From Sphingobacteriales bacterium 46-32 (lineage in GTDB: Bacteria; Bacteroidota; Bacteroidia; Chitinophagales; Chitinophagaceae): DNA of 64,000 nt. The first letter of the stretch is position 1; every line of letters starts with the position of its first letter. Below the pieces are notes generated by a model. That model was not told where the DNA came from, searched no databases, and saw only the letters and a program-made list of their open reading frames with translations. The stretch covers positions 62,001 to 126,000 of the forward strand of contig MKTY01000010.1 in NCBI GenBank assembly GCA_001898485.1. The letters are read 5' to 3'. The translations under genes were made by a program, and so were the position numbers. Positions 8,933 to 64,000 of the stretch are shown here, one piece after another.

Positions 8933-9437
8933 AAATTATCGGCTCCTTTATGGTTTACATTTTCCTGCGCTTCTGATAGCACTAGTCCAGTTTATTCCCG
9001 CCGGTTATTCTGTTGCTCTTTCATTAGTGAAACCAGCCCAACGGGAAGGCCTGGAATTGAAAGTAAGTGTTGTGAATTCGTCGGCCGATAATGTCCGGAT
9101 TTTAAAACACCGTCAAACAGATTACAAAAGAGAGAATATTAAGGCGCTGGGGAATTATATAGTGGAACTCCGGCAATTGAAGGGAGATAAATTTATACTA
9201 TTTACACCTACGGCCGATATCGATCCGATTTTTGAAGAAGAGGAATATATCTTATTTAAGAAAGGAGAGCATTTATGTGATACACTGTATGTGGCAGGAG
9301 CACTTTTTTCGGATGGGAACTCATCGGCCAGGGGATTTCCTCCCGGACAATACAGAGTTCGTGTTTATTTTAATCCCGACAGGGGGTACTCCTCCGAAAT
9401 AAATAGTTCTGAATGGATAGATTTTACGGTGAAGTAA
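8907..9437 (+). CDS. Exported protein of unknown function
   Basis: 176 residues. A hydrophobic segment at about residues 18-39 (LHFPALLIALVQFIPAGYSVAL) looks like a signal sequence, although the 17 residues before it are longer than usual and overlap the DUF4272 remnant, so the real start may be internal. The mature part (ELKVSVVNSSADNVRI to the end) reads like a beta-sandwich, with a closing GQYRVRVYF strand as in intracellular-proteinase-inhibitor or Ig-like folds. No catalytic motif seen. A strong hairpin terminator follows. Confidence 0.6.
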   Translation: MSPGFSGNKNYRLLYGLHFPALLIALVQFIPAGYSVALSLVKPAQREGLELKVSVVNSSADNVRILKHRQTDYKRENIKALGNYIVELRQLKGDKFILFTPTADIDPIFEEEEYILFKKGEHLCDTLYVAGALFSDGNSSARGFPPGQYRVRVYFNPDRGYSSEINSSEWIDFTVK

Positions 9438-9480
9438 ATACTATATAAACTGATATACCTTTCACCCTCTACCATCAACC

Positions 9481-9527
9481 TTATTAAACTTGAAAGGCCC
9501 GCGCAGCGGGCCTTTCAAGTTTAATAA
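9481..9527. terminator. Bidirectional terminator between convergent genes
   Basis: Perfect 22-base-pair stem (left arm 9481-9502, right arm 9506-9527) with a GCA loop. The GC-rich core GGCCCGC is flanked by an AAA/TTT-rich base, so it can serve the plus-strand gene ending at 9437 and the minus-strand katG ending at 9541. Confidence 0.9.
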
Positions 9528-9540
9528 TCCTTTCACCGTT

Positions 9541-11772
<2,232 letters not shown>

Positions 11773-11798
11773 TTAAGTGGATCAATCGTATCACCAGT

Positions 11799-11823
11799 TG
11801 TCTTTCATGTATGATAAAAGACA
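11799..11823. promoter_or_regulatory. Palindrome upstream of katG, candidate peroxide-response operator
   Basis: Inverted repeat with 10-base arms TGTCTTTCAT (11799-11808) and ATAAAAGACA (11814-11823), one mismatch, 5-base spacer, 42 bases before the katG start. OxyR or PerR control of katG is common, but this repeat does not clearly match either published consensus as I know it. Confidence 0.45.
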
Positions 11824-12528
11824 TCTATGTAGTTTATTATCAGTATTTGTACAGCATTTTGCTGCGTTGCAAATTTGTGACAGTTCGGGTAATAAACCTA
11901 ATTGATTAAATTGATAGAGATATAGAGGAAATCTATGAGGTTGAAGGTGAAGGGGGGAAGGGTTTAAAGGTTTAAAAGTATAAAGGTGGTTTTGCATGAA
12001 GGTGGAGGGTAAAAGGCGGAGGGTAAAAGCTGGAAAGTAAAAGTGATGGTGGGGGAGAAAGGTATGTTCGGAACTGTAGTAGACCGCTCGGGCCGCGAAG
12101 CGGCCTGAGCGAGTTCGATACACAGACTTCTTATCAGGTAAACAGCATTTCGCAAAATGCTCTTGACCTAACCGCTCGGTCAGTCTGAAGCCTTCGACCA
12201 CGCAGCAGCCCGGCTGATTTACTTCAATATTCATTATACCCTTTAACTTTTTTATAATCCCGGCTGCAGTGCTACTATCATCGCCTGTGGCCTGTCCCGC
12301 GTTTGCAGGATTTCTCACTTTTACTGCAGAATATGCTTCGACCGGAGCAGCCTGCTATCCCGTATTTTCTATTCAATCAGATAGTGTTCAACACAGTCAT
12401 TTTCGCTAATGAAAATCCCCTTAACATTTTTTCTGAGATTTCATAAGGTGAAAACACGGGTTGACGACCCTTTCCGAAGTTTATATGTTTATAAGTTAAT
12501 AATTGACGTTATTTCTAATTTATTTATT
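11824..12528. other. Non-coding stretch between katG and the AT-rich island
   Basis: No convincing gene. Bases 11945-12060 are purine-rich low complexity (repeated GGTTTAAA, AAAGTA and GGAGGGTAAAAG units on the plus strand), similar to runs after 37237 and 41746. Bases 12061-12400 have ordinary composition with one GC-rich hairpin. A minus-strand open frame across 11791-12318 is mostly low-complexity translation. Near 12461-12491 a TTGAC and a TATGTTTA box are spaced roughly as a Bacteroidota promoter would be, 38 bases before the island gene start. Confidence 0.5.
12085..12111. repeat. GC-rich hairpin
   Basis: Arms CGCTCGGGCCGC (12085-12096) and GCGGCCTGAGCG (12100-12111), one mismatch, GAA loop. 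No T-run follows on either strand, so it is not an obvious terminator. It sits about 300 bases before the AT-rich island. Confidence 0.5.
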
Positions 12529-14079
12529 ATGGCAACGAGAATGGCAATTTGTCTGTTTGAAGATCATATAACTACTTTTGACGTTTCTCGATTAATGACG
12601 GGACAACCACTTTCAAAGATTAGTTTGCATAATGCTGATCCTAGTGTTGTAGTTTATGTAAAACCGTCCAATGATTTAATTCCAGAATGGACAAATATAG
12701 TTCAAGGATTTGCTCATCTTGGCTCACTTAATATGTCCACAGCAACTTCTGGAGCGATCTTGTTTGTAAAAACAAAAAACAAGATTTTAGCTTGCTGTTT
12801 CGGGTCTTCGGTGGGAAATATAAATAAAGAGAATATTATACACGATTTTGGACTGGCGGTAGCGTTTAACCGTATTCCCAATAAACGCTACAAGACAATG
12901 GAGTCTTATACTCTCACAGAAAACCCTATCAGGAATAATCGAAGTGCTGCTTTGCCTTCTACGCAGAATAATTTTAACATAGACGATTACATAGAAACGA
13001 TAACAGAATTAAGCGGGAAATATTTTTCGATGACAAAAGCTGTTTTAATAAAGGGGAAAGAATTTTTCTCAATTCCAGCACCATTAAACCTAAATGAAAT
13101 AAAAAACCTATGTCAAACTATTGCAGATGAATACGAAAAAGTGATAAAAAATTCTGATTATAAAAGGCTGACAGCCGTATCAAAAATTAAATCAAAAAAA
13201 CTTATTGATTTTTTAGATGATAAATTATGTGAAGCTCTAAATAAAAGATCTAAAACAGTCTTTTTAGTAGATTACCAACACTCCGAAAATATCGATTCTT
13301 ATGGTTTTAGTCTTAAAGGAAATACCTTGCTAGATATTGAGATGGAGGATTTGTATAAAAGTTTGAATAAAGGACAGAAATTCACAGTTCAGTATTTAAA
13401 GACGAAACGAATCTACGTGTATGATAAGGACTTTCAACGTGTGGATGAATGGTCTATTTATAAATGTTTGTTTTTTAATTTGGCATTAAATATCGGCGGA
13501 CACATATTGTATAAAGGAAATTGGTATGAAGTTCAAAAAAGATATTTGCAGGACCTAAAAGATTATGTGACTGCTCGAGAGATAAAGTCTTCTGATATTG
13601 GATTACTGCCTTGGGATGGGGTACAGAATGAAGGCGGATATAATGTTGCTGCAGCTAAAGCAATAAACGGGCAATGCTGGGATAAAATGCTCTACACTCA
13701 TTCTGATTTTTCTTACGGGATAGAATTTTGCGATATTTTATTACCGAATTATGTTATGCATATTAAAAAAATGTCCAGTTCAGCTTTAAATAGTCATCTG
13801 CTCATGCAAACCTATGTTTCGGCGCAACTTCTAAAATCGGATAAATCTATACGAAAGTGGATTAAGGAGAGATCGTCTACTTTTTTTAAAAAGAATATTT
13901 TTCTTAAGCCTTCTAATGAATTTAAAAATGGAAAAGTTAAATATTTGATTGTATTGTTGGCCGGTTCGGGAAAAGAAGCCTTTGTGGATAGGTTGCCATT
14001 TTTTAGCTTAATAACATTTAATATGATGATTAGGAGGATTCAGCAGCTAGATTTTGAAGTTGAGATTTGTTATGTATAA
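12529..14079 (+). CDS. DUF6119 / TIGR04141 family protein
   Basis: 516 residues from the ATG at 12529 (MATRMAICLF); an earlier in-frame ATG at 12409 would add 40 residues overlapping a likely promoter. It matches my recollection of the sporadically distributed TIGR04141 (DUF6119) family, about 500-560 residues: an early PEWTNIVQGF segment, a FVKTKNKILACCFG strand, IIHDFGLAVAFNRI, a central acidic region and the late block GNWYEVQKRYLQDLKDYV, then EFCDILLPN, HIKKMSSSALNSHLLMQ, and the VKYLIVLLAG strand. No catalytic motif is known to me. It is much richer in AT than its flanks, and the next gene is an HNH endonuclease, so a defence role as a sensor or specificity partner is a reasonable guess. 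Confidence 0.75.
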   Translation: MATRMAICLFEDHITTFDVSRLMTGQPLSKISLHNADPSVVVYVKPSNDLIPEWTNIVQGFAHLGSLNMSTATSGAILFVKTKNKILACCFGSSVGNINKENIIHDFGLAVAFNRIPNKRYKTMESYTLTENPIRNNRSAALPSTQNNFNIDDYIETITELSGKYFSMTKAVLIKGKEFFSIPAPLNLNEIKNLCQTIADEYEKVIKNSDYKRLTAVSKIKSKKLIDFLDDKLCEALNKRSKTVFLVDYQHSENIDSYGFSLKGNTLLDIEMEDLYKSLNKGQKFTVQYLKTKRIYVYDKDFQRVDEWSIYKCLFFNLALNIGGHILYKGNWYEVQKRYLQDLKDYVTAREIKSSDIGLLPWDGVQNEGGYNVAAAKAINGQCWDKMLYTHSDFSYGIEFCDILLPNYVMHIKKMSSSALNSHLLMQTYVSAQLLKSDKSIRKWIKERSSTFFKKNIFLKPSNEFKNGKVKYLIVLLAGSGKEAFVDRLPFFSLITFNMMIRRIQQLDFEVEICYV

Positions 14080-14158
14080 TAATCAAAGCTATATTTTCCT
14101 GTTTCTTTTAAATAGAAGAGTATTGTATATTTAAATGGTAAATAATTTACTATTTTCT

Positions 14159-14902
14159 ATGAAAAAAATAAGTGCAGAACAGATTGAATTGGCTTACGCG
14201 GTTTCTAAAGCAGTTTATAATAGAGAAATTAGTAGAAATGAAGGTCTTGATAGATTGAGGGAGACCGCTATGAATAAGGGTACCGCGTCCATCTATTTTG
14301 GTGTTTATGCATATTTGATTACCGGACGTACATTTAGTCGAACAGTAAGTGCTCAGTCTTTTGATTATTATCTGAGTCAAATCTATTTGGAAAATGGGAG
14401 CGAACAATTGCTTACATCCTTGATGGCTTTGAAGAATCATATCCAGTATTTTGAATTAATTCAGAACGTAACTATGAAACTAGTGAGAGATATTTATGTG
14501 AAGTATTCTTTCTTGTACTCTGAGAATAAACCGGAAGAAATAAACGTTTCTAGTGACGACGATGCAATATGCTTTCCGGAGGGGAAAGAAATATATAAAC
14601 TTCATTTAATGAAAGAGCGTAATTCGGAATTGGTTCGATTAGCAAAAAAAAGATATTTGGAAAGAGATGCTTTACTGAGTTGTCAAATTTGCAGTTTTTC
14701 ATTCGTTAGTAATTATGGAGAACTAGGGAGAGGGTTTATTGAGGCTCATCATATCTATCCCATTTCAGAACTAAAGAGTGAAACGGAAACAAAAATTGAT
14801 GATTTGATATTAGTTTGCTCAAATTGTCACAGAATGTTGCATCGAAATAGACCTTGGACAACAATTGAAAATTTGAAAGAGATAAAAAGAAAGTTCATAT
14901 AA
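14159..14902 (+). CDS. HNH endonuclease with N-terminal helical domain
   Basis: 247 residues from the ATG at 14159 (MKKISAEQIEL); an ATG at 14135 adds eight residues. The N-terminal 140 residues are helical and resemble the small domain found before HNH nucleases in restriction-like proteins (YAVSKAVYNREISRNEGLDRL, then GTASIYFGVYAYLITGRTFSRTVS). The C-terminal HNH domain is complete: Cys175 and Cys178 (CQIC), the catalytic pair in EAHHIYPIS (His197, His198), and the second zinc pair with catalytic His in CSNCHRMLH (Cys220, Cys223). Such McrA-like enzymes cut DNA, often modified DNA. It follows the DUF6119 gene by 79 bases with the same AT-rich composition, suggesting a two-gene unit acquired together. 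Confidence 0.85.
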   Translation: MKKISAEQIELAYAVSKAVYNREISRNEGLDRLRETAMNKGTASIYFGVYAYLITGRTFSRTVSAQSFDYYLSQIYLENGSEQLLTSLMALKNHIQYFELIQNVTMKLVRDIYVKYSFLYSENKPEEINVSSDDDAICFPEGKEIYKLHLMKERNSELVRLAKKRYLERDALLSCQICSFSFVSNYGELGRGFIEAHHIYPISELKSETETKIDDLILVCSNCHRMLHRNRPWTTIENLKEIKRKFI

Positions 14903-15109
14903 TTTGTCTATAAATTACTATTCGCTCTTTTCAGATCAGATGTAGGAAGTATATGTAACCATAGGTTATATATGAGTAAATGCAAATGTGTGAATTAAAT
15001 AATTAGTTCAGGCGCTATTGCTCTCCCCCAAATCCCCTAATATTGTAACCGGTATAAGGCTTTAACTGGCGGCATTCTCCCAGGATGCACGCTATCAGAT
15101 GTTAGTTTA

Positions 15110-15718
15110 TTGGAGCACCGGGTTACATATCAGGAACAGGACTGGCTGGTGAGGGTGGCAGAAGGAGATCATCAGGCTTTTGCGGCACTGCTGCTGGAGT
15201 ATCATCCCCTGGCTTATCGTACTGCACTCAAACTCACCAATGATGCCTGGCAGGCCGAAGATGTGGTGCAGGAAGTTTTTCTGAAAGTATGGCTCAAACG
15301 CAGTACACTGCCACAGATTGAAAACTTTCGGGCCTGGCTTGTTACCATTACCACACACGTTATATATGATATGCTCCGCAAGCAGCACGCGGAGAAAGGC
15401 CACCTGGCCAGTTGGATCAAAGAGCTGGAACCCTTGCAGCAGCTCAGCCAGCAAACTATGGGCGAGGGCAATGCTTTCGAAGAACTGGTGGGCCAGGCAG
15501 TGGAGCGGCTCAGTCCCAAACAGCGGCAGGCCTTTTCCCTGATAAAAAAAGAAGGATACAGCCGCGAGGAAGCGGCAAAGCTGATGCAGGTTTCGCCTGA
15601 AACCGTCAAGAGCCACCTCGACCTGGCCATGCGCAGCATCCGCGCTTATTGCATCAGCCGCATCGGGCTGGGTGTGCTGTTGCTGACACTGGCTATTGCC
15701 CGGCAAAAATATTTTTAG
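15110..15718 (+). CDS. ECF sigma-70 factor of the first SusCD locus
   Basis: 202 residues from a TTG at 15110; no in-frame ATG precedes it. Sigma-70 region 2 is at about residues 20-90 (YHPLAYRTALKLTND, AEDVVQEVFLKVW, NFRAWLVTITTHVIYDMLRK) and region 4 at about 130-180 (LSPKQRQAFSLIKKEGYSREEAAKLM, SPETVKSHLDLAMRSIR). A hydrophobic C-terminal tail (IGLGVLLLTLAIARQ) is typical of Bacteroidota ECF factors paired with FecR. It is followed 66 bases later by a FecR gene, then SusC/SusD, so it should direct transcription of this locus when released from FecR. Confidence 0.9.
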   Translation: MEHRVTYQEQDWLVRVAEGDHQAFAALLLEYHPLAYRTALKLTNDAWQAEDVVQEVFLKVWLKRSTLPQIENFRAWLVTITTHVIYDMLRKQHAEKGHLASWIKELEPLQQLSQQTMGEGNAFEELVGQAVERLSPKQRQAFSLIKKEGYSREEAAKLMQVSPETVKSHLDLAMRSIRAYCISRIGLGVLLLTLAIARQKYF

Positions 15719-15784
15719 CAGCCTCCCCCAAACCGGATCCGGGTTTCGTCAATAGCAATAAGGAATGACAGGTTCCCCCAATCT

Positions 15785-17023
15785 ATGACGGGATCAATAC
15801 AGAAATTATATAATGTGTGGCTGCAGGGTCATGCCAGTGAAGCGGAGCGGCAGGAGCTGATGCGTCTGCTGGCTCTTCCGGAAAATAAGGAGCTGGCGCT
15901 GGCATTGATCAGTCAGGCTATAGAGTCAGACGAATTAAATGCGGCAGATGGACCGGTGCTTTCCCCCGACCGGCTCGATCTATTGCTTCAAAGTATTGTC
16001 AGTGTTGATGCAGTGCAGGAGCCGCCAGTGTCTGCTGAGGGCTCACCTGTGCGTTTTCTCCGGCGCCCATGGCTTCGTTATGCAGCTGCTGTCTTGCTGC
16101 TACTGGGGCTGGGCGCTTTTTATTATTTCTTTCTGTCGCCTGCCGGCAAAAAAGGTACACCTCCTGTTGACCTCGCTTCCATCGCACCCGGCAGGGATCG
16201 TGCAGTACTGACCCTTTCTAATGGCAATACCATTCTGCTCGATAGTGCCGGCAGCGGTACTCTTGCGCAGGAAGGCGATGTATTGATCTCCAAAACAGAG
16301 AATGGTGCTATCGTGTATGATGCACATGCGGAAAATGATGGTGAGGTGATGATGAATACCATGACTACTCCGCGGGGCGGACAATACCAGCTTACCTTAC
16401 CCGATGGTACACGTGTATGGCTTAATGCTGCCAGCTCCATTCGTTTTCCCGCAGCCTTTACTGGTGATAAGCGGGTGGTGGAAATGACGGGCGAAGCCTA
16501 TTTCGAAGTAAAGAAAGATAAGAGCAGGCCTTTTTATGTGCGTATCAACAACCAGGCAGAAGTGGAAGTGACGGGTACCAGCTTTAATATTAATGCCTAC
16601 GACGACGAGCCGAATATCAATACCACGCTCGTGGAGGGATCGGTAAATATGTGGGCCGGACTGCAGGAAAAGGGAAAAAGCGGTGAGGTATCCCTCGTAC
16701 CCGGACAGCAGGGGAGAATGTCGCATACAACATCATCTGCTATTGCGGTTAGTAAAGGGGATGTGGAGAAAGCCACTGCCTGGAAAAACGGCAGTTTCAA
16801 TTTTGAAGGATCCTCGCTTAAAGATGCCATGCGGCAACTGGCGCGCTGGTACGATATAGAAGTGGTATATGATGAGGGACTGCTGAAAAAAGGTATTCAG
16901 CACTCCACGCTGGTGGGCGGCATCAGCCGCGATTTGCGCCTGGCCGATGTGCTGGAAGTGCTGAGTGTGCTGGGCCTGCATTTCCGGATGGAAGAGGGCA
17001 GGAGGCTGGTATTGTTACCCTGA
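15785..17023 (+). CDS. FecR-type anti-sigma factor
   Basis: 412 residues with the standard three-part layout: an N-terminal cytoplasmic sigma-binding part (residues 1-95), one transmembrane helix (about 98-117, YAAAVLLLLGLGAFYYFFL), and a periplasmic FecR domain (TPRGGQYQLTLPDGTRVWLNAASSI to about 300) followed by a C-terminal DUF4974-type domain (FEGSSLKDAMRQLARWYDIEV). In such systems the periplasmic part senses contact from the STN domain of the loaded SusC transporter and frees the sigma factor. The adjacent SusC does carry STN domains, so the signalling chain looks intact. Confidence 0.93.
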   Translation: MTGSIQKLYNVWLQGHASEAERQELMRLLALPENKELALALISQAIESDELNAADGPVLSPDRLDLLLQSIVSVDAVQEPPVSAEGSPVRFLRRPWLRYAAAVLLLLGLGAFYYFFLSPAGKKGTPPVDLASIAPGRDRAVLTLSNGNTILLDSAGSGTLAQEGDVLISKTENGAIVYDAHAENDGEVMMNTMTTPRGGQYQLTLPDGTRVWLNAASSIRFPAAFTGDKRVVEMTGEAYFEVKKDKSRPFYVRINNQAEVEVTGTSFNINAYDDEPNINTTLVEGSVNMWAGLQEKGKSGEVSLVPGQQGRMSHTTSSAIAVSKGDVEKATAWKNGSFNFEGSSLKDAMRQLARWYDIEVVYDEGLLKKGIQHSTLVGGISRDLRLADVLEVLSVLGLHFRMEEGRRLVLLP

Positions 17024-17183
17024 TATAACGCGGGAGTATGGTGTAGTGCTCCTTATTTATATAAAAATTTTGTCCGGAAAAAGAAACAGGAAGTGTGGGT
17101 GACACTTCCTGCAAAGAAAGTCTGGATGAATCGAAAACACAGTTAGGAATCATTCTCAAATCAACCAAAACTGCATCAAAACT

Positions 17184-20100
17184 ATGCAAAAAACTGCTTA
17201 CGGATTATGGAAATCCGTACGAAGGCTTACGTCGCTTTTCCTGACGCTGTCCTTCATGACGGTGTACGCAAACAACGGTGCTTCGCAAACCGTGACGTAC
17301 ACAGGAAAAAAAGTTCCGCTGAAGAATATTTTTGACGCGGTAAAATCACAGACCGGTTACTCGGTCATCTCGATGGGCTCGTCGCTCGACAACTCAAAGC
17401 CGGTGACCATCAGTGCCACTAACCAGCCCCTGAAGGATTTTCTGGCACAGGCCCTCAAAGGTCAGCCTTTCACTTACCGCATCATGCACAACACGGTGGT
17501 GATCTCTTCCGAAGCGCCCCTGGTGACGCTGAATGTGAAAAATGAACCCCTCAGCAAGGTGTTTCAGATGATCCGCGAGCAAACGGGATACAATATCCTG
17601 TACAACGATCAGGTAAAAGCCGAGACAATACTGGTAACGGTGAATGTAAAGGATGTGACGCTTGAAGAGGCATTGGAGAAATGCCTGGCTGGTCAAAACC
17701 TGGCTTTCCGGGTCGATCAGAAAGAAGTGATCATTACACTCAAAGCGGGTTCGCAACCAGCTGTCCGTACAGACCGCACCATCACCGGCCGTGTACTCAA
17801 CGAAAGTGGTCTGCCGCTGACCGGTGCTACCGTAAAAGTAAAAAACGCACAAGTCTCCGCCCAGGCAGATAACCGTGGTGAATTCATGCTGACGGGCGTA
17901 CCAGATACTGCTACACTGGAGATATCATTTGTAGGATATAAAGACCAGGATGTAGCGATTGGCAATCGCAAAACAATCGACGTTATACTGCTGGAACAAA
18001 ACAATACCCTCAACGAAGTGGTGGTAGTGGCTTTCGATAAACAACGTAAAGAAAGCATGGTAAGTTCTATTACAACCATCAAACCCAAAGAACTGAAAGG
18101 GCCTACCAGCAACCTCACCACCATGATGGCGGGTCGCCTGGCCGGTGTGGTTTCCTATCAGCGTAGCGGTGAACCCGGTGCAGATAATGCTTCGTTTTTT
18201 ATCCGCGGCATTACTTCATTCGGTTCGGGTAAACTGGATCCGTATATCCTGATCGATGGGATGGAATCGACTCCGACCAATCTGGCCCGGTTGCAACCCG
18301 ATGACATCGCTGCTTTTTCTGTGCTGAAAGATGCGGCAGCATCTTCGCTCTATGGAGCACGTGGTGCCAATGGAGTGATCCTGGTGACGACCAAATCTGG
18401 TGTGGCCGGTAAGACGAAATTCAATATGCGGTTTGAAAATTCTATCTCCGGCAATACCGACAATTTCAAAATGGCCGATAATATCACGTATATGAAACTG
18501 GCCAATGAAGCCGTGCTCACCCGCAATCCCCGCGAAGCACTTCCCTACAGCCAGAATAAAATCGATGCCACCATTGCCGGCGAAAACCCCATGCTGTATC
18601 CCAACAACGACTGGATGGGGTTACTCATTAAAGATCATACTGTCAACCAGCGGTTCAATATGAACCTGACGGGTGGTGGTAAAGGAGCGCAATATTATAT
18701 CGCGGCCAGTTACAACCAGGACAATGGTGTGCTGAAAAACAACAGCCGCAACAGTTTTGATAATAATATCAAACTCAAAAGTTATGAGATCCGTTCAAAC
18801 GTAACGGTCAACCTCACGCCCACAACGATCGGTATCGTGCGCACTTCCGGCAACTTCGATGACTATACGGGCCCCATCGGTGGCTTTGATGCCAATGGCA
18901 ACCGGATCAATGGCGGCTCAGTCGTATTTAACAGCGTACTGAAATCAAACCCGGTATTGTTTCCAGCCGTATTTGATCCATCCGATTCTCCGTACGATAA
19001 TCACCCGCTTTTTGGAAATGCCCTCATTTCTCAGGGCTCCAATACTTTTTATAATAATCCCTATGCCACCATGGTATCGGGTTACCAGCAGTACAATACA
19101 TCTACACTCAATGTGCAGCTGGAGATCCAGCAGGATTTTAAATTTATTACACCGGGGTTGAAAGGCCGCGTGATGGCTTATACCAAACGTTACTCTTATT
19201 TTGACCTGTCGCGCCAGTATAATCCGTTTTATTATTCTGCCAGTCCAACCAATGATAATGAAAAGGGATACCGCCTCAACCTGCTGAATCCCACTACGGC
19301 AACAGAATACCTGAACTATAACCCCAACCAGAGTGATAAGATTCAGAATACTACTGGTTATATCGAAGCTGCATTGAACTATAAGACAACTGTGGCCGAT
19401 GTACATAATATCAGCGGTATGGTGATCGGCATCATGCGCAATCACCTCAATGGCAGTGCAGCCACACTGCAAACCTCCCTGCCGGCGCGCAACCTGGGTG
19501 TATCGGGGCGTTTTACTTATGATTATGACTCGCGTTATCTGTTTGAAGCCAACTTTGGTTACAATGGTTCCGAGCGTTTTGCCAAAAACAATCGTTATGG
19601 ATTCTTCCCCTCAGCAGGTATTGGCTGGATCGTGAGTAATGAGAAATTCTTTACACCGCTGCAGGGCGTGATCACCAGTCTGAAACTGCGTGCCACGCAT
19701 GGCATAGTGGGTAATGATCAGATCGGTTACTCCAGTGATCGTTTCTTCTACCTGTCAGAAGTATCGCTCAACAGTCCCGACCGTCGTGCTACGTTTGGCG
19801 ACAATTTTGGATATACCCGCAACGGCGTAGCCATTACCCGCTATGCCAACGAAAATATTACCTGGGAAATATCGAAGGAGACCAATGTGGGTATGGATAT
19901 GTTGCTGTTCAACTCGCTTAATGTGATTGTGGATGTGTTTAAGAAAAAGCGTACCAACATCCTGATGCCACGTGCATTTATTCCAGCTACCATGGGTCTT
20001 ACTGCAGTCACTAGTGCCAATGTGGGAGCCGCTTCTTCAAAAGGTATTGACCTGGCGCTGGATTACAGCAAAAGCTTCCGTGATTTCTGGATCAGTGCAA

Positions 20101-60795: not shown

Positions 60796-61131
60796 ATGAT
60801 GAGCCTCACTGCAGATAAGCTTGACATATTGATGGACTCCGGTAAGCTATTTGAAAGGGATAAGGCTGCTGTAAGTATATTATTAACGGCTATAAATGAC
60901 TGGCCTGAGCCAATCGCGACGCTGGCCCAGTATGTAGCAGAAGTGGAAAGATTTGCAGGTGGCCATACGGGTAAGAGCATACTTTCCCAAAAAATCACTT
61001 CCTCAACAGCTCATAGAGAGAGTTGGAAGCAGGAATCGTTAGCTGTTGTATTAGAGATTTTTATATATTTCCCTGATATGTCATCATTGAAAGAGGTGGT
61101 TGAATATTTGGATGAAAAATACCTCGTGTAG
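60796..61131 (+). CDS. Hypothetical helical protein
   Basis: 111 residues, starting MMSLTADKLDILMDSGKL; mostly helical, no signal peptide or membrane segment (SILLTAINDWPEPIATLAQYVAEVERFAGG). Family not recognised. First of a run of small AT-rich genes on the plus strand to the window end. Confidence 0.5.
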   Translation: MMSLTADKLDILMDSGKLFERDKAAVSILLTAINDWPEPIATLAQYVAEVERFAGGHTGKSILSQKITSSTAHRESWKQESLAVVLEIFIYFPDMSSLKEVVEYLDEKYLV

Positions 61132-61211
61132 AGATTTGAAGCTAACGAAGTGCAGGTGTTCCGAAGCTTAAATATCTGGCTAACAGGAAAAACATAAACC
61201 AGGCTTTCAAA

Positions 61212-61721
61212 ATGAAAAGGGGTGAACGAAATAAAATTCTTTTTTCGGCACAGCCGTCTTTACAGCGGATAAGAAATTATATTCTAGATATTCTCGGCCT
61301 TTTCGGGGTGGTATACAGCGTATTGAGTTTTAATGAAAACCCGTTTTTCTTTTCATGCGTTCTTGCATTTCTTATTGCAGCTATTCTTTTGTCAGGATAT
61401 AACAAGGTGCTGGTTTTTAAAGCGGAGATTGTTTTTAAGGTTCAGCATCCGATTGATTTTTTCTCAAAAGAATGGCGCTTTGTCTTTGAGGAAATAGAAT
61501 CGATAAATGCAGATTTAAGACTTAGCAAAAGAAGATTTATTCTTTCTGAAATAGTCTCAGTGATTTTTCCTGTTAGTTCTTTTTGGAATACGGTTACTAT
61601 TAAAAAGAAAGACGGCAGCATCGCCATTATTAATACAAAAGTAGATAAGGAAGGGCTGGAAAAAGCGCTGAGTGAAGTGGGCCAGCTGACAAACGGCAAA
61701 GTCCCAATAATTTTTCTATGA
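61212..61721 (+). CDS. Hypothetical two-helix membrane protein
   Basis: 169 residues. Two adjacent transmembrane helices (residues about 28-62, YILDILGLFGVVYSVLSF and FFSCVLAFLIAAILLSGY), then a soluble C-terminal part with PH-like strands (VFKAEIVFKVQHPIDFF, NTVTIKKKDGSIAIINTKVDKEGLEKAL). Resembles in layout the bacterial PH-domain or YcxB-like membrane proteins; function unknown. Ends 21 bases before the next gene, so a common transcript is likely. Confidence 0.55.
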   Translation: MKRGERNKILFSAQPSLQRIRNYILDILGLFGVVYSVLSFNENPFFFSCVLAFLIAAILLSGYNKVLVFKAEIVFKVQHPIDFFSKEWRFVFEEIESINADLRLSKRRFILSEIVSVIFPVSSFWNTVTIKKKDGSIAIINTKVDKEGLEKALSEVGQLTNGKVPIIFL

Positions 61722-61742
61722 AGGGTTCAAAATTATATATGT

Positions 61743-62405
61743 ATGGCCCAGAAAAAGAATGAAGAAAACGTTATTCAGCGAATACGTCTTTCCAGGAAGC
61801 AATTAAAAGAAATGATTGCAAAAGAAAAGGGTGTTTTAGAACCTATATTCAGCAAAGAATATTTGAATGACACCTATTTGCTGCCCAATGGGCATGTAGT
61901 AGTGGATTTCGATACGCATGGTTTTTTGTATAGTTCTTTTACCGATTTAAAGAACTGGATTCGTCAGCTCAGGAAGATGCAGGACGAGGAACTTCCTTCA
62001 CATATTTTAAAGAACCGGTTATTGTATGGAAAAGAATTTCTACTCCATATACCTGGTCTGCTGGAAATGGTTGTGGACGTTTTCAAATTAAAGGACAGTA
62101 CGCCCACCATTGATCAGCTGAAGATCATTGATGAGCAGTTGATGAAGAGGCGAACTGAAATTACTCCAGCAGTTTTTTCCGGTTTGGTAGCTTACGCGGG
62201 AGAAATAATTAAAAATTCACTGAACAACGCAGAATGGGCCATAGTGACTAGTGCATTCGATACTGCGGTTTACGAACCGCTTGTCATTGAAGGAGAGATG
62301 ACTTATAACCCTTTTTTTCCTGTTTACAGGGAATTATTTGAACAATATCCGGAAACAAACAGGTTAAGTTTGGCGGATGCCGTGCATATAGAAATGAACA
62401 GGTGA
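61743..62405 (+). CDS. Hypothetical protein, immunity-like
   Basis: 220 residues, soluble. A charged helical start is followed by YLLPNGHVVVDFDTHGFLYSSFTDLKNWIRQL, then alpha-rich segments (ITPAVFSGLVAYAGEIIKNSLNNAEWAIV). The acidic, small globular character and position among other small orphan genes resemble immunity proteins of polymorphic toxin loci, but I see no specific motif. Same strand and close spacing to its upstream neighbour. Confidence 0.5.
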   Translation: MAQKKNEENVIQRIRLSRKQLKEMIAKEKGVLEPIFSKEYLNDTYLLPNGHVVVDFDTHGFLYSSFTDLKNWIRQLRKMQDEELPSHILKNRLLYGKEFLLHIPGLLEMVVDVFKLKDSTPTIDQLKIIDEQLMKRRTEITPAVFSGLVAYAGEIIKNSLNNAEWAIVTSAFDTAVYEPLVIEGEMTYNPFFPVYRELFEQYPETNRLSLADAVHIEMNR

Positions 62406-62538
62406 TGTAAAAGGGCTGATGACTTTGCAGCTCAGTTGAACATGGTTTAGAAAGAAGTCATGAATTTGCCAGTTGAATGATATCTGTGATCTGCTGCATT
62501 CATTCAGTTACATATTGGTTATATATAACAATAGTAGT

Positions 62539-62898
62539 ATGAAGTTTTGGCAACTATTAGACATTTTTAGAGACGAGAAACTTTTGCTAGTTGAAGTATT
62601 TAGTCAAAAAAAGTGGCGAAGCTACTTGCCTATTTTTTATAACATTGAAAATGTAGTAAAGAGTCAGGATAGAACCATCTTAGATGGTGAAATTGATGAT
62701 GAACTATTAAAAGAAATGTGTTCTAAGACAAGTAAAAGCATTTATTTTTCTAGTCGAAAAAATGTAATTTATTCTTACAAAAGCGAATATGCAGATACTG
62801 AAATTCAGCTTTTAGATGCAATCACGAAATTTAGTCATGATGCAATTGAAGAAGTATTTGAAAAATCAGAAGCTGACGTTGGTGGTGAGTCCAAATAG
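62539..62898 (+). CDS. Hypothetical small protein
   Basis: 119 residues from the ATG at 62539 (MKFWQLLDIFRDEKLLL); a TTG frame extends upstream but lacks sense. Alternating strands and helices, acidic (DGEIDDELLKEM), one aromatic strand (SIYFSSRKNVIYSYKSEY). No family recognised. Confidence 0.45.
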   Translation: MKFWQLLDIFRDEKLLLVEVFSQKKWRSYLPIFYNIENVVKSQDRTILDGEIDDELLKEMCSKTSKSIYFSSRKNVIYSYKSEYADTEIQLLDAITKFSHDAIEEVFEKSEADVGGESK

Positions 62899-62957
62899 GC
62901 AACCCTGTTAAAGACCTGCTAGCAAATTTGAAAATATTTGTTTAAGTTGGCTGTAAA

Positions 62958-63093
62958 ATGAATTATAAGAAGAAACTACTGTTTTTTTTTGATTCTGCCG
63001 GCAGTTCTGCTCTTCTTAAACCAATGCAGGATGGAGACGAATGTATATAAGAATTTTCCAAAATGTACTTTTGAGATAAGTTCTACTAACTAA
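62958..63093 (+). pseudogene. Frameshifted lipoprotein-like small gene
   Basis: Beginning MNYKKKLLFF, the frame breaks in a run of nine T at 62982-62990. With eight T the frame would continue as LILPAVLLFLNQCRMETNVYK to a stop at 63091, giving a 44-residue peptide with a lipoprotein-like signal. As it stands it ends early after a nonsense frame. Either dead or switched off by homopolymer slippage. Confidence 0.45.
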
Positions 63094-63128
63094 CCTCCAG
63101 ATTTGAAGATAATACAAAGCTAAATTTT

Positions 63129-63668
63129 ATGGCATATACTATGGATGATGAGTTAATTTCTTTATTTAACAGAGCTCAATCTGATACGTACAAGGTACAC
63201 GATCATGCACTATCAGATTTGAGGTTTCTTATAGAACGTTTTACCATGAACAGATATAGTGAGCGTGAACGGGAAGACTATCTGGATTTTTTTTATAACA
63301 AAAACCTGATTGATTATAGACTTGATTCGGAAAAATTAGATTTAATTAAACATTTTTTATTTTTCTTACTATTTAATTTTCCAGATAGAGCCGAATCAGT
63401 GGCTAAATGCGTTAAAGTTCTGTTTGACCCGTCTATTTATGAAGCCATATGCAGCGCCATTGAGTTTTATATGGAAAAAAACGACCTGGCTACCTATGAA
63501 TTAATTTTTGGCATTACTGATACAACTAATAGCGCCGAGTATTTTAAAAATAAACGGGTAGTAGAGTTATTTCAGCGAATCCGAAAGTCCGGTGGAAAGT
63601 TTTCAGCTGCATTAATTGAGGACGTGTTTAATTTTTACAACGAAAATGAAAAGAATATTTCTTCGTAA
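63129..63668 (+). CDS. Hypothetical helical protein
   Basis: 179 residues, almost all alpha-helical (DDELISLFNRAQSDTYKVHDHALSDLRFLIERF, AICSAIEFYMEKNDLATYELIF), no signal or membrane segment. HEAT-like or immunity-type helical repeats are possible, but nothing identifies a function. Composition is AT-rich like its neighbours. Confidence 0.5.
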   Translation: MAYTMDDELISLFNRAQSDTYKVHDHALSDLRFLIERFTMNRYSEREREDYLDFFYNKNLIDYRLDSEKLDLIKHFLFFLLFNFPDRAESVAKCVKVLFDPSIYEAICSAIEFYMEKNDLATYELIFGITDTTNSAEYFKNKRVVELFQRIRKSGGKFSAALIEDVFNFYNENEKNISS

Positions 63669-63822
63669 ATCCAAGAGTATACTTAATAAATATTTTTTAT
63701 TTATGAACATTTTTACGGTTGTGCAGAGTTATTTTTTGTTTATTGGTTTATGATAATTGCAAATGCGTAATTAAGCTGCCCGGTTTTACTGTCAGTGAAG
63801 TTCAACGTCGGATAGATAATAA

Positions 63823-64000
63823 ATGAAAATTATGAAGTATCTGCTATGCTTTTTAATGCCGTTATGTATCGGTAAAATTTGTTCAGGGCAGAATAGGGCT
63901 ATACTGTCAAATATTTCTGATTCACTGTTTATTAGAAACCTTATAATTCGGGATAGCTGTATTAGATTTATTCCAGTTGGTAAGTCAGATGCTGTTCTTG
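63823..64000 (+). CDS. Exported protein, start only (cut by window edge)
   Basis: Frame opening at 63823 (MKIMKYLLCFLMPLCIGKICSGQNRAIL) and running off the right edge after 59 codons. The start is a clear signal peptide, possibly with a Cys lipobox-like site at CSG. Too little to classify. Confidence 0.6.
   Translation, partial: MKIMKYLLCFLMPLCIGKICSGQNRAILSNISDSLFIRNLIIRDSCIRFIPVGKSDAVL

Follow-up and report, generated by a model that had tools for sequence, protein, structure and literature searches.

An AT-rich island with a DUF6119/TIGR04141 gene and an HNH nuclease gene in a Chitinophagaceae genome: candidate exchangeable anti-phage cargo

Introduction

What is the role of a small AT-rich island set between ordinary core genes in the genome of Sphingobacteriales bacterium 46-32 (Chitinophagaceae)? 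The window analysed here is a stretch of 64,000 nucleotides (contig MKTY01000010.1, positions 62,001 to 126,000, assembly GCA_001898485.1). Its island of 2,555 bases holds two genes on the same strand, a DUF6119/TIGR04141 gene followed by an HNH nuclease gene, and nothing else; genes were called as longest open reading frames (ORFs), without a gene finder. A sequence-only reading of this DNA had found that the pair looks as a minimal anti-phage or modified-DNA restriction unit would. The account developed below, to which we give about an even chance, is that the island is horizontally exchanged anti-phage cargo with the DUF6119 protein as a DNA-binding nuclease core and the HNH protein as an optional second nuclease.

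Such a cargo would be directed against phages or other mobile DNA. The RdgC/RexA-like front half of the DUF6119 protein would bind or encircle invading DNA, and the PD-(D/E)xK-like rear half, with its unusual H-x-K third motif, would cut it; the protein would act within or next to type I restriction machinery in some genomes and with no such machinery in others. The HNH nuclease would have joined DUF6119 here, in Aeromonas and in Shinella, each time with a different N-terminal part, which would fit a type IV-like enzyme with a swapped target reader, and would serve the cassette as a helper or second line without being an essential subunit. What was observed directly comprises the families, the borders of the island, the alternative cargo, the invariant residues and the repeated adjacency; DNA binding, cutting, an anti-phage effect and cooperation with the HNH protein are what we infer from them and from predicted folds.

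Identity of the two genes

The product of the first gene matched PF19614 (DUF6119; E 1.6e-86, 291.5 bits, cut-off 27) and TIGR04141 (E 1.6e-85, 287.5 bits, cut-off 35), in both cases over nearly the full length of the profile. Based on these profiles it is a member of the DUF6119/TIGR04141 family, as the sequence-only reading had held. The left limit given in that reading, 12409, did not stand: the ATG at 12529 is the start used by a 66% identical relative and yields 516 amino acids (aa), and 12409-12465 falls left of the break, outside the island, with 12424-12465 common to a congener. No PADLOC family (PADLOC-DB of 2023) matched the protein at E values up to 1, and comparison with PDB chains gave no sequence similarity.

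The product of the second gene matched the Pfam HNH family PF01844 (4.9e-9, 36.7 bits, cut-off 21.4). The intact motif claimed earlier is present, as C183-x2-C186, H205-H206, C228-x2-C231-H232 and H236; it has the zinc cysteines and catalytic histidine of the profile, and the HNH residues are invariant in the three partner proteins described below. By these profile matches the protein is a member of the HNH nuclease superfamily. The distance between the genes, put at 79 bases, fits a start at 14159, but counted from the first ATG (14135) it is 55 bases. A likeness to McrA and related type IV enzymes, also proposed, held for the HNH domain, where residues 183-239 align with PDB 6ghc (phmmer, E 7.6e-4, HNH part only) and the PADLOC model mREase_IV matched at 7.1e-5; the N-terminal part (to about residue 145) had no Pfam family above its cut-off and was unmatched by phmmer. 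An IscB label was dismissed at 16 bits against an NCBIfam cut-off of 175. The same genome holds a second HNH homologue (G000:C20:872718-873065, 44% identity over residues 140-253), on another contig than its only DUF6119 gene. A search of viral contigs with the HNH sequence found none.

Recurrence of the gene pair

A set of 99 DUF6119 loci was assembled from 100 loci with a phmmer-found DUF6119 gene, one being a duplicate (L023 = L033); nine further loci without such a match lie outside it. A profile built from 24 HNH sequences was searched against the 1590 genes of at least 85 aa in these loci, DUF6119 genes included, and gave three matches, each the next gene after DUF6119 on the same strand: in the window (gap 55), in Aeromonas enteropelogenes (L053, gap 47) and in Shinella oryzae (L141, where the genes overlap by 17 bases if the first possible start is used). 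If genes are exchangeable, with DUF6119 genes counted and the clustering of defence genes ignored, the chance of three out of three at the next same-strand position is about 2.4e-4, and chance adjacency is disfavoured.

In a tree of 97 of the 100 rows (L021 and L046 left out) the HNH label needs three changes, each of them forced by starred branches; this is a quick tree, which carries a warning of long branches, L141 among them. The DUF6119 rows of L018 and L085 are identical, and L156 is probably the same locus as L032. Three separate pairings, in Chitinophagaceae, Aeromonas and Shinella, would be the simplest count. Each of the three pairs consists of adjacent genes on one strand, and the pairs lie on different branches of the DUF6119 tree, so the pairing does not appear to be random. 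The three HNH proteins resemble one another at the HNH end and in the residues immediately preceding it but in little else, the N-terminal parts being unlike. That of the Aeromonas partner (L053:11578-12200), about 200 aa long, has no Pfam match and is possibly a new reader domain.

The pairing is also rare. A further 13 loci, 10 of them taken from a family search with flanks of about 1.5 kb and 3 of them viral, gave no HNH module, and no HNH gene lies beside the closest DUF6119 relatives, L031-L033 (65-66% identical). At L033 the neighbours are a gene for 279 aa, without a Pfam or PADLOC match and nuclease-like by eye, and then a type II-A retron with reverse transcriptase and NDT effector (L023:4350-8353, the same locus); the neighbour at L031 is a 366 aa gene without a PADLOC match and at L032 a 189 aa gene. 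TIGR04141 matched in 13 of 395 Bacteroidota genomes (10 over the curated cut-off) and the HNH homologue in 41, the window's genome being the only one in both lists; for the window's family the TIGR04141 count was 13 of 394. These counts reject the HNH protein as an obligate partner. The idea of a conserved minimal system was too strong, and co-localisation of the homologues, expected by the sequence-only reading, was seen in three pairs but not at the other 96 loci: the pairing recurs, is rare and is not obligate.

Two independent defence genes might instead share an insertion site, DUF6119 acting alone and the HNH protein being a separate type IV-like enzyme with no common mechanism. We hold this to be a serious possibility, clearly short of an even chance. 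It is consistent with the gene downstream of DUF6119 lying on the opposite strand in 25 of the 82 loci with a neighbour within 500 bases (both neighbours in 9), with HNH homologues being about three times commoner than DUF6119 in the sampled phylum and only one genome having both, with the second HNH homologue away from the single DUF6119 gene, and with the different neighbours of the closest relatives. It does not readily account for all three HNH matches falling at the next same-strand position, a pattern improbable under random scattering in an estimate that ignores the clustering of defence genes, or for the overlap of the Shinella genes by the first possible start.

Genomic neighbours of DUF6119

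Type I restriction genes accompany DUF6119 more often than the HNH module does. Type I genes abut it on the same strand in 11 of 97 loci, and at 7 more at least two kinds of type I gene lie within 5 kb (18 of 97 in total); on annotated plasmids the order is HsdS, DUF6119, HsdR, SprT. PADLOC was run on 118 of 178 nearest neighbours and on 120 of 138 distant genes (at least 6 kb away). The HsdR and HsdS models each matched 10 of the 118 nearest neighbours; 71 models matched distant genes, and the 25 listed match one gene each and include no type I model. In Pfam, HSDR_N matched 11 and Methylase_S 10 of the 118 nearest neighbours, and neither is among the 25 of 130 families listed for distant genes, which include MmeI and a Schlafen helicase. 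The link of DUF6119 to type I systems is clear.

Outside the type I loci, nearest neighbours matched BrxL, a DRT reverse transcriptase, capP, RmrA and type II methylase models, in ones and twos, and the wider link to defence is only suggestive. The defence setting proposed in the sequence-only reading is borne out by the recurrent type I neighbours and by another candidate defence gene at the same site in a congener. Downstream neighbours at other loci include HNH_2, PDDEXK_4 and NucS_C proteins, and most DUF6119 loci have no recognised constant partner.

The family is found in many bacterial groups, in two archaeal bins among the 80 loci listed, on plasmids and in phages. Viral contigs gave no DUF6119 gene when searched with a single sequence and three when searched with an alignment. 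In a Pseudomonas phage the gene lies beside an annotated integrase; of the two phage-contig copies L165:5863-7482 and L022:7989-9698, one follows lysis-like genes (by eye) and the other is beside an annotated integrase.

Predicted structure and conserved residues of DUF6119

An AlphaFold2 model of the DUF6119 protein was built from 69 sequences (68 of 77 loci were used in the alignment, nine rows outside 500-600 aa being left out) and had a mean predicted local distance difference test score (pLDDT) of 85. Residues 3-208, compared by VIA, matched RdgC (Z 6.3 and 5.7), IML3 (4.4), RexA (4.2) and the L chains of human kinetochore complexes (4.1-3.9), which we take to be CENP-L; other matches were a triphosphate tunnel enzyme (4.0), profilin (3.6) and RnlA (3.4). 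In PMC11077077, RexA, RdgC, IML3 and CHL4 are treated as one DNA-binding fold group, with a published Dali Z of 4.4 between RexA and RdgC. Several of the front-half matches fall within this group, and the model suggests an RdgC/RexA-like DNA-binding fold for the front half.

The rear half gave a different set of matches. Within the full model, residues 344-516 matched FokI (7.1), HamA of Hachiman (6.5 and 6.1), CdiA toxin nucleases (5.9 and 5.5), Mglu (5.1) and CD38 (4.6). Folded alone, the domain had a pLDDT of 90.6 and matched FokI (7.2), HamA (6.3 and 6.2), EcoT38I (6.1), SduA (5.8), CdiA (5.7 and 5.3), Card1 (5.5) and Hachiman (5.2); these nine top chains (Z 7.2-5.2) are presumably all PD-(D/E)xK nucleases or proteins holding one. 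The prediction suggests a PD-(D/E)xK-like domain with an alpha-beta-beta-beta-alpha core.

Ten residues, E368, D385, E399, D402, H411, K413, S418, S422, H423 and Q427, are invariant in all 69 sequences, and the near-invariant signature is E399-x2-D402-x8-H411-x-K413...Q427. In the model E368 is on the first helix, E399 and D402 are at the end of the second strand, H411-x-K413 is on the third strand and Q427 on the next helix, places at which a PD-(D/E)xK domain would have its active site, and they may form one here. A wider check scanned 43 loci, of which 38 gave a row, five loci being present twice. W332, E399, D402, K413 and Q427 were kept in all 38 rows and H411 in 37, with C in a Streptomyces copy; a Bacteroidota branch whose proteins have about 600 aa carries R and D or E at S422 and H423 and keeps E-x2-D and H-x-K. 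The divergent branches are L152 and L157-L161, and the copy with C for H411 is on a Streptomyces plasmid.

Several points weigh against our account. Foldseek at E<=0.001 returned nothing for either the full model or the rear-domain model. The RexA match has a root-mean-square deviation of 13.2, a poor superposition, and VIA Z values of 6-7 are below 8 and may, by the tool's own warning, reflect only a common arrangement. With the rear domain, CD38 ties at 5.2, followed by Mglu, PRPP synthetase and NucC at 5.1. In the wider check N replaces E368 in one locus, which is present twice, and H replaces D385 in one locus. Motif III carries H, not E or D, so this may be a nuclease that is altered or no longer active. 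On the genomic side, distant genes are also matched by PglX, RmrA, DruM, REase_III and type IIG models; outside the type I loci the defence matches next to DUF6119 are modest, 118 PADLOC models matching among 105 nearest neighbours (of 138, below 1300 aa) against 71 among the 120 distant genes, overlapping models inflating both figures. By the criteria used, 76 of 97 loci have neither type I nor HNH company, and cooperation is therefore not required. The whole account is a prediction.

Some of these points would suit a DUF6119 protein inactive as a nuclease, a RexA/RdgC-like DNA-binding regulator or specificity aid for HsdR, HNH or PD-(D/E)xK partners. Its place between HsdS and HsdR in several operons, the HNH_2, PDDEXK_4 and NucS_C proteins downstream of it elsewhere, and the H in the third motif where an acid is usual are in keeping with such a role. 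The acidic and lysine residues are nevertheless kept in deeply diverged copies, and a mere binder would not obviously need them; this retention favours catalysis over mere binding, and we think the binder-only role improbable, at perhaps one chance among several. The protein might also be a toxin of another kind (growth-arrest or toxin-antitoxin) that kills the infected cell, given that the rear domain resembles CdiA toxin nucleases and that plasmids and phages carry copies; the island has no small gene of antitoxin type next to DUF6119, and we consider this reading unlikely.

The island and its insertion site

The contrast in composition with the surrounding core genes, part of the sequence-only reading, was upheld: the G+C content (GC) of the island, 0.323, compares with a mean of 0.470 for 2,555-base segments of the background (standard deviation 0.020, minimum 0.401; starts outside 9901-15019 and before 58000). 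The lowest-GC segments of this length in the 64 kb (step 50 bases) fall at the island. GC at third codon positions is 0.29 in both genes and 0.52-0.61 in katG and in the sigma factor, FecR and SusC genes of the flanks. That only two genes, on one strand, lie here was likewise correct for 12466-15020.

The outer flanks are shared with the congener G395 (91% complete), in which KatG is 98% and FecR 94% identical. At the site G395 carries instead an AT-rich gene (L186:5638-7653) for a 671 aa protein with SLFN_AlbA_2, HATPase_c_4 and a C-terminal RRM_1 domain; a profile scan found no HNH domain in this cargo. The 671 aa protein also has weak matches to pAgo models of PADLOC. TIGR04141 matches are absent from both congeners, G395 included. 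Because a congener with the same outer flanks holds another AT-rich gene there, the gap between katG and the sigma factor gene is a site of swappable cargo, and it looks like a cargo hotspot.

The borders were located by blastn of window positions 9001-19000 against L186, which aligned only 9296-12033, 11958-12189, 12424-12465 and 15021-19000. Continuous similarity stops at about 12189 on the left and restarts at 15021 on the right, so that 12190-12423 is unmatched in the congener besides the island itself. Between these, 12424-12465 is common to both genomes (93% over 42 bases, with 31 of them identical); with up to 3 mismatches allowed, the window's genome contains a single copy of a 27-base stretch that overlaps the 31-nucleotide element. 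To the left of this element the congener carries an additional ORF of 196 aa. The coordinates are collected in Table 1.

Table 1. Features of the island and its flanks (positions in the window)
Feature	Position	Strand	Basis
AT-rich island (cargo)	12466..15020		GC 0.323; unmatched by blastn in congener G395, which has a different gene there
31-nucleotide element at left island edge	12435..12465	+	Alignment; identical in window and congener, abutting two different cargoes
DUF6119/TIGR04141 protein, 516 aa	12529..14079	+	Pfam and TIGR profiles; start from closest relatives
Codons 3-208, RdgC/IML3/RexA-like predicted DNA-binding region	12535..13152	+	AlphaFold2 model, pLDDT 85; VIA
Codons 340-516, PD-(D/E)xK-like predicted nuclease domain	13546..14076	+	Domain model, pLDDT 90.6; VIA; invariant residues
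HNH nuclease, 255 aa (or 247 aa from ATG 14159)	14135..14902	+	Pfam HNH; HNH domain 183-237
katG, left flank	9541..11757	-	ORF; congener copy 98% identical; name assigned from sequence
ECF sigma factor and FecR-like gene, right flank; SusC-like gene next	15110..17023	+	ORFs; names assigned from sequence; FecR 94% identical in congener

Could the pair be a selfish mobile element, the HNH protein acting as a free-standing homing nuclease by which the linked DUF6119 gene is spread? The HNH gene does adjoin an unrelated passenger at an exchangeable site, but no direct repeat of at least 14 bases joins the two island borders (introns, inteins and RNA families were not searched for), the three HNH proteins have unlike N-terminal parts and DUF6119 partners far apart in the tree, and the congener's cargo has no HNH domain, which leaves this explanation very improbable.

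A scan for promoters and terminators was uninformative (10 promoter-like sites against 11.8 expected, no terminator). Outside the island, a 175 aa ORF on the minus strand (11791-12318) was taken as spurious. At the end of the window, 61001-64000, GC is again low (32-37%) over a stretch that has several short ORFs; two of the ORFs were scanned with PADLOC and gave no matches.

Comparison with known systems

The window copy resembles its family in its full-length match and in having all signature residues, and differs in its HNH partner, found at only 2 others of the 99 loci. The type I operons with DUF6119 between HsdS and HsdR contain the same family, whereas the island, with two genes only, lacks HsdM, HsdS and HsdR and is not itself a type I restriction-modification system. 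The predicted front half is like the RexA/RdgC/IML3 fold (VIA Z 6.3-3.9), but DUF6119 has a nuclease-like domain behind it and no sequence similarity to PDB chains; the RexA-fold paper contains no word that begins 'nuclease' (PMC11077077). In its predicted core, acidic residues and x-K, the rear half is like FokI, HamA (Hachiman), SduA (Shedu) and EcoT38I. It differs from PD-(D/E)xK nucleases in the H for E or D before x-K, with no sequence similarity found, and none of these four proteins is among the matches listed for the front half.

Searches for a published function of DUF6119, TIGR04141 or PF19614, including broader ones, found none in texts covered without supplements, where a mention is possible. 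The sole paper naming DUF6119 was a wheat MADS-box study with one domain call in a plant protein. The five newly validated DUFs named in passages of the DefensePredictor paper do not include DUF6119, though its supplements or those of a BREX survey may mention the family. What is new here is the suggestion, from models, that DUF6119 joins a front half that binds DNA to a PD-(D/E)xK-like rear half bearing a near-invariant motif.

In a bolder form of our account, DUF6119 would represent a defence nuclease of a new class. Its RdgC/RexA-like clamp would encircle invading DNA and its PD-(D/E)xK-like blade would use an H-x-K site, the protein working alone, between type I specificity and motor subunits, or recruiting an HNH protein with an exchangeable reader. 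We offer this tentatively and think it less likely than not. The analysis turns a bare family name into a testable assignment, with a predicted DNA-binding fold, a nuclease-like active site and named residues. If it is true, a DNA binder of the RexA/RdgC fold would here be fused to a nuclease, and DUF6119 would move as a module among stand-alone, type I and HNH-linked settings.

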